Position numbers and translations under genes: made by a program. 44,248 bases of DNA from Planctomycetota bacterium (lineage in GTDB: Bacteria > Planctomycetota > Planctomycetia > Planctomycetales > Planctomycetaceae). A model generated the notes under the pieces. That model searched no databases. It had not been told where the DNA came from and was given only the letters and a program-made list of their open reading frames with translations. Of the stretch, positions 11,678-15,604 are shown one piece after another (within the stretch, counting starts at the first letter, position 1; every line of letters starts with the position of its first letter). The stretch is from contig JAJXXL010000163.1 of assembly GCA_021781115.1 (NCBI GenBank), positions 1 to 44,248 of the forward strand. Reading direction: 5' to 3'.

Positions 11678-12256
11678 CTATTCGTCAATTTGCAGCGAGC
11701 TGACCTGCAAGACCTGCCCGCTGATCGAAAATCCGAATACCTTGAGCCAGTCGGGAACCGGCTGGTTACCTGAAAAGTTTGACAGCACGCACACGGTCAC
11801 GCGGACTTCGTTTGAATTGAGCGTCGCCGGGTTCGGTTGCGTGAACGCAATCGAGGTGTTGCCGGTTTGAACTTTGGGATTGGTTCCGTTTTCGATCGTC
11901 AGTAACGCGCCGTCAGTGTTATTGGTGCCGCTCGTGCTCAAACTGATGTGATGCAGCGCCAGGATCGACTCGACCACGGTCGCGATGTCTGACGTGCTGG
12001 TGTTGACACGCACACCTTCGCGTGCGCCTTCAATCGCAGCCGTCGTCACCGCAGCCTTCACGAGCATCATCAAGCCGAACTCAAACGCCGCCGTGGTGGC
12101 AATCACCAGAATCGGCAGTGCCAGAATTACTTCGACATACACCGAGGCCCGTCGGCGTGATGCGTTTGAACGCCGGGGCGGCTTCCTGCCGTCGCGGCGC
12201 ACACCGGCCAGGTCATTGGTCGCTCGATCACCCGAGGTTATGCGATGGTCAAACAT
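11678..12256 (-). CDS. TadE-like pseudopilin
   Basis: N-terminal SRRRASVYVEVILALPILVIATTAAFEFGLMMLVKAAVTTAAIEGAREG. Confidence 0.75.
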   Translation of the reverse strand: MFDHRITSGDRATNDLAGVRRDGRKPPRRSNASRRRASVYVEVILALPILVIATTAAFEFGLMMLVKAAVTTAAIEGAREGVRVNTSTSDIATVVESILALHHISLSTSGTNNTDGALLTIENGTNPKVQTGNTSIAFTQPNPATLNSNEVRVTVCVLSNFSGNQPVPDWLKVFGFSISGQVLQVSSLQIDE

Positions 12257-12978
12257 GGGGCGGCGACTGTCTGTGGGAAGGGCGACAAGATGGGCGCGGG
12301 GAACTTGATCAGCGTCATTAACACGCGATGATCATCGCGCGTTAACGGTTGGATACAGCGACGGCGTGCGTCGCCACCGGTGTTGACAAACCCGAATTGC
12401 AAAACCAGTGGCGCCGCGAAGCTTTTGTGTACCGAAGCTTTGATTCGCGCCGTGATCACAACTCGCGATTGATCAGCATATCGCGTGCCAGCACACGGTT
12501 CAGCAATCTTTCGCGCGGCTCGAAATCGGCGTGCACCGGGAGAGTATCGTGAAACACTCCGTTCCAATTGCGTCTGAACCCACGCCAATTTCGTGGTTCG
12601 CCGCACCCTGCATGACGTTGCACAAAAACACCGCGCCCCGATGTTTGACGGATTTCGGCAACATCACATTCCGCCTATCGGCGGCGGCGGGTTGATTGTA
12701 GTGCAATTTGGCAAACAGCGTCGTTGGGCGAGGCAAGCGACCGTATTATGCGAAACGATGCGGCGATTTCGCGATACCCCGTCCCGTGCGGCGCCGCCCC
12801 CCGGTCTCCTGAAACCCTCTTGGAAACGATGATTTCACCGCGTGGACTGCGCACTGGCATAAGGGTTGCAATGTCGATCGTCTGCGTTTGTGCACTTTCG
12901 GTCGCCGCGCCATGCCGCCGACCGCGCGACTTCACCAATCGCCGCTGGCCCTCTTCTCGACAGGCAAAAGTGGTCACG

Positions 12979-13572
12979 ATGGTTTTTTCCACACAGGCTT
13001 TGGCGACAGGGCGACACAACCGGAAGCCGGTTCAGTATTACCGGTCGTCCCACGCCGCCCCGCACGCGAACGCGCGGCGACGCAATGGCGTTGTCACGCT
13101 CGAACTGATCCTGGCGTTTCCGATTCTGTTCACGCTGCTGCTCGTGATCATTGAATTTGGTTTGATCTTTTCCGCGAGCAGCCACGTTTCCGCGGCCAGT
13201 CGCCTGGGGGCCAAGGTGGCTTCCAAGGCGGGCACCGTGGCGGGCCTGCAAGCGCTCATGCCACCCGTCTCCAGCAGCCCCGGTCCGCTGGCCACCGAAA
13301 TCAACCGCTATCTGACCTCCGCCGGGTTTGTAACCAGCGCCTGCCAGGTCACGCTTCAATACAACAACGGTGGCAACCAGGTGCTGACCGACCCCAGCGG
13401 CGGCGGGACGTGTAATTGCTCCGCCCCCACGGCCAATTTTCCCCCCACAAACTACGTCCGGGTGACCGTGTGCGTGCCGCTTTCGCAGAATGTCCCTGAC
13501 CTGCTCACGATGTTCGGCTTCTCGTTGACAAACCGCTCGCTCGAGCATACCACCACGTTCCAACTCCAATGA
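12979..13572 (+). CDS. TadE-like pseudopilin
   Basis: ARRRNGVVTLELILAFPILFTLLLVIIEFGLIFSASSHVSAASRLGAKVASKAG; start trimmed from 12724 to ATG 12979; overlaps next gene by 4 nt (ATGA). Confidence 0.75.
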   Translation: MVFSTQALATGRHNRKPVQYYRSSHAAPHANARRRNGVVTLELILAFPILFTLLLVIIEFGLIFSASSHVSAASRLGAKVASKAGTVAGLQALMPPVSSSPGPLATEINRYLTSAGFVTSACQVTLQYNNGGNQVLTDPSGGGTCNCSAPTANFPPTNYVRVTVCVPLSQNVPDLLTMFGFSLTNRSLEHTTTFQLQ

Positions 13573-14219
13573 CCGACGCCATGCGCATACATCACGGCAA
13601 TGTTCGCCGAAATCCATTCACGCGATCGGCTGCCACTCGGGCAAACGTCGCCGGGGCGCTGCGTCGAGGTACTCACCGGCGGGCCGGCGTGGCAACGGTT
13701 TGGGTCATTCTGACCGTCCCGGCCATTTTTACGATGCTTGTATTCGTCAGCGACATTGCCAATCTTTGGCTGGCTCGCATCGAATTGGGCAACGCGCTCG
13801 AAGCGGGCGCACTGGCCGCCGCCGAAGAGTGGGCGCAGGGCAGCAGCACCACGCAGGCCCGCACCATTGCGCAGGATTACGCGTTTGCCAATAATGTCAT
13901 CGGCCAGCCGGTCAGCCTCGGTTCGAACCAGGATCTCGCGCAGGGACCGAATGACAATGCGAGCTGCACGGGCGATATTGTACTCGGGGCTGTTGATGTT
14001 CTTACGTTCACTTTCAGCGCGGGGACTGCACCGGGACCTCCCTCAACCCGGCATTTCGGCGTGAAAACGCAAAAAACGGTTGTCGTGCCCAGTCTCTGGA
14101 CCAGCCTGTTCGGCTTCACGCCCGGCCCGTATGAGGTGACAGCGCACGCCATTGCGATGTGCCCCGCGACGGGCACTCCGGCCCAACTCGTGCATATCAA
14201 TACCTTTACCTGCCCATAA
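13569..14219 (+). CDS. TadG/TadE-like pilus assembly protein
   Basis: RRAGVATVWVILTVPAIFTMLVFVSDIANLWLARIELGNALEAGALAAAEEWAQG. Confidence 0.7.
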   Translation: MTDAMRIHHGNVRRNPFTRSAATRANVAGALRRGTHRRAGVATVWVILTVPAIFTMLVFVSDIANLWLARIELGNALEAGALAAAEEWAQGSSTTQARTIAQDYAFANNVIGQPVSLGSNQDLAQGPNDNASCTGDIVLGAVDVLTFTFSAGTAPGPPSTRHFGVKTQKTVVVPSLWTSLFGFTPGPYEVTAHAIAMCPATGTPAQLVHINTFTCP

Positions 14220-14253: not shown

Positions 14254-15228
14254 TCAATTCATGCCCCGCCCCGTGTAATTGACGAGTGTCAGCTCACTTT
14301 CAGGCACCGGCAACTCGTGAATCGCTGCCGCGGCGGCGTCGAGCAAAGCCACCGCCTCAAGCGCCGCGGGCTCCAGTGCGTCTGACCACTCCTTGGGTAA
14401 TGGTTCGGCGCGGCCGCCTTGCCAGTAGTTTGTCACCGGCTCGGTGCTGGTGTGGCATACCCCGCCCAGATACTCGCCCGCCATGACGAACGCGCGAACC
14501 ACCCAAAACCGCCCCGTACGCAGCGGCGGGACGATGCGCTCCTGCAGCAGGTGCTTCCCGGAAAACCGATGCGGTGGCTCGTCTTTCGCCGCAACCTGCA
14601 CGCCATGCCCGCCCCAGCCGATGCGCGGTTTGACAACATAGCCTTCGGCAAACAGGTCGGCGTGTTCCTGCAAGATGCGGGACACTTCGGCGGCGCTTTC
14701 GACGGCAAAGCCGCGCGGCGTGCGAAACGTGGCCGCGGCTTGCACCGCCTGGCTGCAGCGCCACTTGTCGCGAACTGCAACCCACGCGCAATTCGGATTG
14801 ATCACCCGCACCCCGGCCCGCTCGTAAGACCAGGGCAAGCCATACCACCAGCGAAATATGCTGCCCGGCCGCACAGGGCGGCCGTCGCGGTCGATCAGTT
14901 CAGTACGCGGATCCTCGTTCGCTTCGACGTTGCAGATGACCGGCGGCTCGCGCAAATGCGGCATCAACCTGGCGGCGATGAAGCACGCGTCTTCGTCAGC
15001 GTCGGGAAACGGGTCGCCGGCCCGCCACAACAAGCAGGGCGTACCACCCGCCGCATTCATTGCTGCGGCGGTTAATGCAAAGGGGCGGTCATTGCCCACG
15101 AGTTCCTGGTATTCGCCCAACATATGCGACGCCCGATTTGCCTCGAGGAAAACCGGCTCGCCCCGGCGGTCGAACATGAAATCCAGCCCCGCCCACCAAT
15201 AGTGCCTGACGACAATCGACTGTGCCAC
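14254..15228 (-). CDS. ATP-grasp domain protein of unusual motif order
   Basis: GLDFMFDRRGEPVFLEANRASHML near the N-terminus; pre-ATP-grasp-like INPNCAWVAVRDKW; GYVVKPRIGWGGHGV...LLQERIV. GTG start at 15228 preferred to ATG at 15264. Confidence 0.7.
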   Translation of the reverse strand: MAQSIVVRHYWWAGLDFMFDRRGEPVFLEANRASHMLGEYQELVGNDRPFALTAAAMNAAGGTPCLLWRAGDPFPDADEDACFIAARLMPHLREPPVICNVEANEDPRTELIDRDGRPVRPGSIFRWWYGLPWSYERAGVRVINPNCAWVAVRDKWRCSQAVQAAATFRTPRGFAVESAAEVSRILQEHADLFAEGYVVKPRIGWGGHGVQVAAKDEPPHRFSGKHLLQERIVPPLRTGRFWVVRAFVMAGEYLGGVCHTSTEPVTNYWQGGRAEPLPKEWSDALEPAALEAVALLDAAAAAIHELPVPESELTLVNYTGRGMN

Positions 15229-15393
15229 AACGCCCGTTCCCCCATTCAGAGATTCAACGCACATCGACTGAACGGCAGGCGATTATTGCATTTGCGATTT
15301 CGAGTCGTGACAAATCGCCGGCCTGGGAACCGAACCGAAAATCGCCCGTGCGGGGCGAAATTCGCTAATCGGGAAAAAATTGAGAAAATCGTA

Positions 15394-15422
15394 TTGACCA
15401 ATTTCGGCGAAGACTCTATTTT
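15394..15422 (+). promoter_or_regulatory. sigma70-like promoter for candidate small RNA
   Basis: TTGACC (15394-15399), 17-nt spacer, TATTTT (15417-15422). Confidence 0.5.
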
Positions 15423-15428
15423 CCCGCC

Positions 15429-15604
15429 TCATTGAACGGACGCAATCACCCCTCTCACGCTCACTTCAACTACCACCATTCAACCGCTCAGCGAACGACG
15501 CGGCACGTCGGCCCTTGATCGTCCACTGCGTTTGATCCAATCGCCCCGGAAGTAGCGGATGTCCTTTGCCCCCCTGGGACCCGCTGCTTCCGGGTGTTTT
15601 TTTT
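15429..15604 (+). ncRNA. Candidate intergenic small RNA
   Basis: Promoter-like boxes, G-depleted segment 15443-15485, small hairpin CGACG-CGGCA-CGTCG (15496-15510), strong intrinsic terminator; no convincing + strand ORF. Confidence 0.5.
15545..15604 (+). terminator. Rho-independent terminator
   Basis: CCCGGAAGTAGCGG (15545-15558) pairs with CCGCTGCTTCCGGG (15581-15594), stem extended by GTCC/GGAC across a bulge, followed by TGTTTTTTTT (T8 at 15597-15604). Confidence 0.8.

Follow-up and report, generated by a model that had tools for sequence, protein, structure and literature searches.

A probable sRNA gene family of Planctomycetia with a conserved C6 terminator loop and CsrA-type hairpins in its long forms

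Genomic context of the predicted sRNA gene

The window analyzed here is the whole stretch of 44,248 nucleotides from a Planctomycetota bacterium. Between an ATP-grasp gene that diverges on one flank (14254..15264, − strand) and a convergent glgC gene for ADP-glucose pyrophosphorylase on the other (15739..~17013, − strand; start codon placed from the MSRVLALVLAGGKG reading), the + strand contains a predicted sRNA of about 176 nt (15429..15604), both ends of which were placed from the sequence, the fold and the promoter in relatives. Beside the sRNA region, Pfam assigned TadE/TadG-like pilus proteins at 11678-12256 (− strand) and 13569-14219 (+ strand), and a similar-looking ORF lies near them at 12724-13572.

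By direct reading and by a promoter scan, we found a -35 element, TTGACC, at 15394..15399 (+ strand), followed after a 17-nt spacer by the -10 element TATTTT at 15417..15422, which the relatives also support. The GC-rich discriminator and 5' end, CCCGCCTCA (15423..15431), is kept among relatives, and transcription would start at about 15428-15431 (+ strand). About 115 nt separate CCCGCCTCA from a 50-nt hairpin with T8, whose U-tract (TG, then T8; 15595..15604) was read from the sequence and found by a terminator scan. For the 177-nt transcript, the folding energy is -55.8 kcal/mol (z -2.9), which is mostly owed to the terminator hairpin. The scan of the window region recovered both promoter and terminator; it returned 5 promoters of such form in 16 kb compared to 3.7 expected, and as shuffles already give about one per 4 kb, the promoter alone is not significant.

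Downstream of the sRNA, the glgC gene lies tail-to-tail with it not only in the window; about 18 further loci, which come from both orders, have this arrangement, mostly at a distance of 67-250 nt. It is the commonest neighbour, and most loci have other genes alongside; no ATP-grasp homologue was found beside the sRNA in the other loci. We infer that adjacency to glgC is an old position, later lost in most lines.

Conservation of the promoter among related loci

The promoter was evaluated in 149 non-identical loci with sufficient upstream sequence. The results showed that a TTGA/TANNNT pair with the right spacing was present within 450 nt in 144 of them, compared to about 11 in mononucleotide shuffles, and that the promoter together with CCG in the discriminator was present in 101 (1.15 expected). 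Because these shuffles preserve composition but disregard relatedness, the counts cannot be taken as independent events, which is a minor worry given the breadth of the lineages. Among the 145 promoter-assigned loci, TTGAC was found in 142, and with spacers of 15 to 18 nt allowed, 122 had 17 nt and 23 had 18 nt. The consensus across loci is TTGACC, TATTNT and a CCCGCC discriminator, and the whole 5.7-Mb genome has just 3 occurrences of the pattern of promoter plus discriminator. From the -10 element to the terminator end, the loci measure about 90 to 470 nt, with a median of 291. A conserved small ORF was rejected, since no ORF is favoured in the family: the longest ATG ORF did not exceed shuffles, and the window copy has none.

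The terminator hairpin and its C6 loop are conserved

The terminator hairpin of the window (15545..15594, + strand) is GC-rich, 50 nt long, and composed of an outer stem of 12-14 bp (CCCGGAAGUAGC...GCUGCUUCCGGG) and an inner stem of 5 bp containing GUCC/GGAC, followed by U-G-U8. Hairpin alignments place a conserved apex, UCCUUUGCCCCCCUGGGA, at 15562..15579, with the C6 loop at 15569-15574. Immediately 5' of the hairpin and outside the stem, CCAAUCGC (15537..15544) is also conserved in the alignment, and CCAATCGC was present in 106 of 145 transcripts. The aligned hairpins share CCAAUCGC, an invariant CCCGGA(A)/(U)UCCGGG stem base and the apex UCCUNNGCCCCCCUGGGA; the C6 run and its loop are near-invariant, and the middle of the stem drifts. 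The C6 loop is the most conserved unpaired stretch of the RNA.

The compensatory changes in relatives were evaluated in two ways. RNAalifold on the aligned hairpins gave 17 pairs, 5 of which had compensatory changes. In 93 distinct hairpins, 94% of the cells were paired, two-sided changes occupied 155 cells compared to 51 in shuffles, and 10 pairs had two-sided changes compared to 5.6 in shuffles. None of 500 shuffles reached the observed level of covariation, and slid controls were far lower. The alignment used here was fitted to the covariance model, and an independent MAFFT alignment agreed with it.

The preliminary description had placed the pairing element elsewhere, in the G-depleted segment at 15443..15485 (+ strand), whose CCCCUC, it proposed, could pair with Shine-Dalgarno sequences. 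The segment itself is real: a G-count scan of both strands showed that no other 43-mer of the whole window has one G or fewer. It is not conserved in the DNA comparison, however, and among 122 related transcripts just 3, one of them the window copy, had a similar 40-mer with no more than one G, so the segment was rejected as a conserved seed. As G-poor segments are no trait of the family, the CCCCCC loop of the terminator, which is the conserved unpaired C-run, takes the place of that seed.

Distribution of the sRNA gene

In a DNA comparison that covered 59 genomes, namely this one together with 58 relatives, matches were obtained in 28 relatives at one place each, and 27 of these aligned at the hairpin only, that is, at query positions 155-228 covering the hairpin and tail; the exception, G056, had a 25-nt match. 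With the covariance model, the hairpin was detected, almost always as a single copy, in 148 of the 171 family genomes examined, and in 116 of the 131 family genomes of good quality, which shows that it is conserved beyond this genome, as the preliminary description had required of its terminator. It was also detected in two other families of the same class (f5 and f7) and was nearly absent from the rest of the phylum, where one weak match (G369) was obtained. When named genomes were scanned with a pattern, at least 120 loci were found, nearly all with titles naming planctomycetes and a few with just "bacterium". Among the loci listed, one side included Schlesneria and Fuerstiella, and the other Blastopirellula, Botrimarina, Bythopirellula and Thermogutta; the named Pirellulales with the hairpin include Blastopirellula marina and Botrimarina.

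Some genomes depart from this distribution. One (G121) gave four covariance-model matches (L266-L269), and the simple pattern regained one of them, with its promoter. There was no model match in several good-quality family genomes (G003, G007, G060, G100, G101 and others), nor in any examined member of the genera g4 and g8, which may reflect either loss or divergence.

No Rfam family was found for the window or for 16 related loci at gathering and relaxed thresholds; matches of the hairpin to plant miRNA families were rejected as chance. The conserved hairpin and upstream promoter, together with this lack of an Rfam match, therefore indicate an sRNA gene family. We regard it as very probable that the stretch is a real, unannotated sRNA gene and, judging from the sequences compared, an independent, usually single-copy gene of Planctomycetia, occurring in Planctomycetales and Pirellulales. 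These results support the initial proposal of a free-standing + strand sRNA gene that has its own promoter and intrinsic terminator and serves no + strand gene; the order of TTGACC-N17-TATTTT, GC-rich hairpin and T8 was borne out by both sequence and conservation.

CsrA-type hairpins in the long members

Over the whole set of loci, the middle part of the RNA shows no conservation. The long members (interior of at least 160 nt), however, are rich in ANGGA hexaloops carried on stems. The motif CANGGAYG occurred 100 times compared to 6 in dinucleotide shuffles, and ANGGA lay on stems of at least 3 pairs in 47% of cases, compared to 1-11% for control pentamers. The closing pair of the hexaloop was C-G in 107 of 114 hairpins; these 107 C-G-closed ANGGAN hairpins compare to 1.3 in matched DNA pieces of equal size from these loci and to 2 on the opposite strand. 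At least one was found in 77 of 95 long members, 25 of which had two or more, and none in the 36 shortest members. The geometry of an ANGGAN hexaloop closed by C-G has high affinity for Csr/Rsm proteins (PMC4005645), and the hairpins of the family are close to the CsrA SELEX consensus RUACARGGAUGU (PMC7652899).

We also searched for the protein. CsrA genes were found in all 59 genomes searched, with 2-16 matches each, and every genome of the family that was searched had 5-16. This genome has 13 CsrA-family matches, and the residues L4, R6 and R44 are kept in 11 of the 12 that could be aligned, so that CsrA with RNA-binding residues is encoded in the same genome as the sRNA. One of the 13 matches lies within a 561-aa open frame and lacks R44 (L219).

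The window copy differs from the long members. Its interior is 122 nt, and its sole ANGGA, the ACGGA at 15436..15440 (+ strand), has 0 contiguous stem pairs, with an A.G mismatch adjoining the hexaloop; as modelled, it may be a weak CsrA-type site at best. The series of ANGGA hexaloops on C-G-closed stems was not found in the window copy. The CsrA reading thus holds for the family and not for the window copy.

In the Pirellulales-type loci (L100, L114, L120, L156 and others), the RNA contains an extra conserved structured block, read by eye as AUCCACGUGGAUGGGUCUGCA...UGCGGACC...GAAGCG, the CsrA hairpin and CGCUUCG. Its elements, CCACGUGG and the stems GGUCUGCA/UGCGGACC and GAAGCG/CGCUUCG, are not in the window copy. 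RNAalifold performed poorly on whole Pirellulales transcripts because their variable segments misalign.

Comparison with known RNAs

The nearest likeness of the C6 loop is to 6C/B11 (RF01066), a structured sRNA with C runs in hairpin loops, as judged from PMC10470900 and from the Rfam model. The 6C RNA of Actinobacteria, a different phylum, has two C-rich stem-loops, whereas the planctomycete RNA has one, on the terminator itself, and its long forms add CsrA-type hairpins. Identity with 6C was rejected, since there was no covariance match in 21 genomes and none with E<5 in the region. The long relatives share with CsrB, RsmZ and RsmY the ANGGAN hexaloops placed directly on C-G-closed stems, but the sites are few, none in the window copy is proper, and the invariant part of the family is the C6 terminator loop. 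No match to an Rfam Csr/Rsm family was found, and an upstream GacA/UvrY box was rejected, as the best match had at least 3 mismatches of 12 and the window 5. For the long form, a nearer analogue than the CsrB-type RNAs is McaS, an RNA that base-pairs as well as binding CsrA (PMC7652899).

A resemblance to 6S RNA (RF00013) lies in the stable-RNA-like gene and the similar size, but the fold differs; 6S identity was rejected, since no covariance match was obtained at the locus and 6S is encoded separately on C246 of the same genome. The Rhodopirellula-1 motif is a named candidate RNA motif from Planctomycetes and Proteobacteria (PMC2864571); compared by description only, it differs in being apparently tabled as likely cis-regulatory and has no Rfam entry (PMC2864571). 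In the open literature, our coverage of which takes in few subscription journals, no planctomycete sRNA of such form was described. We consider the family to be of a known kind, new to the literature and Rfam releases searched, and unusual in the way that two modules are joined in it. To our knowledge, no CsrA-binding sRNA is known from Planctomycetes. An sRNA kept in most genomes of one family across dozens of genera is yet undescribed in the sources searched, and it offers a way into the post-transcriptional control of a phylum whose cell plan is unusual and whose genomes, wherever searched, have multiple CsrA paralogues.

Possible function and alternative explanations

The reading that we favour, at somewhat better than an even chance, is that of a trans-acting sRNA that works through its C6 loop and is coupled to CsrA in the long-form lineages. 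A vegetative-type promoter (TTGACC-N17-TATTNT-CCCGCC) would drive an RNA whose length varies in the family from about 90 to 470 nt and is about 176 nt in the window, its transcription being predicted from the sequence, and the RNA would end at a highly conserved intrinsic terminator that presents a CCCCCC apical loop. This loop may serve as the seed that pairs with G-rich tracts in or close to the Shine-Dalgarno sequences of target mRNAs. Such pairing with G tracts of ribosome-binding sites, proposed by analogy with the C-rich loops of mycobacterial 6C/B11, would likewise lower the translation of the targets; the loops of B11 pair with ribosome-binding sites (PMC10470900). In the long forms, an added middle domain with 1-3 C-G-closed ANGGAN hairpins is predicted, from its modelled structure, to bind CsrA dimers, and the RNA would titrate some CsrA or be controlled by it. 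For the window copy, the function of the C6 loop is what applies, because it has no proper CsrA hairpin.

No conserved target of the C6 loop was found in our searches. G6 tracts before ATG were about twice as frequent as in the backward control, but this was so in genomes with the hairpin and also in those where none was detected (G003, G007), and this excess was rejected as evidence for a set of targets.

The RNA might instead be primarily a Csr/Rsm-type sponge that sequesters CsrA, with the C6 hairpin as a mere terminator and short forms such as that of the window as degenerate copies. The excess of C-G-closed ANGGAN hairpins in the long members, the multiple CsrA matches in every family genome searched and the frequent position beside glgC, which in E. 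coli is a classical target of CsrA, all argue for it. Yet the universal part of the family is the C6 hairpin and not the GGA hairpins, an invariant loop is needless in a plain terminator, most RNAs have 1-2 sites, unlike CsrB, and the GacA box is missing, which makes this explanation unlikely. The same extreme conservation of the loop without a conserved target would suit a protein-binding or other housekeeping RNA in which a protein, such as a chaperone or ribosome factor, recognizes the C6 loop. Growth-rate-controlled stable-RNA promoters have discriminators to which the CCCGCC of this promoter is similar, which would fit as well; but the RNA is not 6S and has no Rfam match, and we hold such a role to be rather improbable.

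Explanations tied to glgC fare worse. A dedicated regulator of glgC is suggested by a perfect 12-nt complement in this genome between the conserved loop (UCCUUUGCCCCC) and GGGGGCAAAGGA, the GGKG codons about 11 codons into glgC, with a duplex of -26.4 kcal/mol, and by the recurring linkage. The GGKG codons are G-rich in any case, however, most loci lie away from glgC, and a synonymous-codon test gave p = 0.06 in the window and a mean p = 0.56 over 17 glgC loci; as the 12-mer match is not kept in relatives, this pairing was rejected, and a dedicated glgC regulator seems very unlikely. Least probable, and likewise very unlikely, is a mere terminator that stops + strand read-through ahead of the convergent glgC and makes no functional RNA. 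The tail-to-tail arrangement, the strong stem and the U-tract would fit it, but the neighbour is other than glgC in most loci, a promoter with fixed spacer and CCCGCC discriminator lies upstream, CCAAUCGC is conserved outside the stem, and termination needs neither an invariant loop nor a conserved outer-stem sequence.

Returning to the trans-acting C6-loop sRNA, a broader form of this reading, to which we give slightly less than an even chance, is that of a class-wide sRNA in which a 6C-like anti-Shine-Dalgarno C6 loop on the terminator has been joined in the long forms by grafted CsrA hairpins of the high-affinity type, linking base-pairing control with the expanded CsrA paralogues, and whose ancestral gene stood beside glgC.

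One minor observation concerns the DNA beyond the terminator. GCGC follows soon past the T-tract in 95 of 145 loci, for example at L014:5070-5073 and not in the window copy, compared to 14.5 expected and to 5% behind other T5 runs; it may represent a pause element downstream of the terminator, or indicate that the RNA runs beyond the U-tract.
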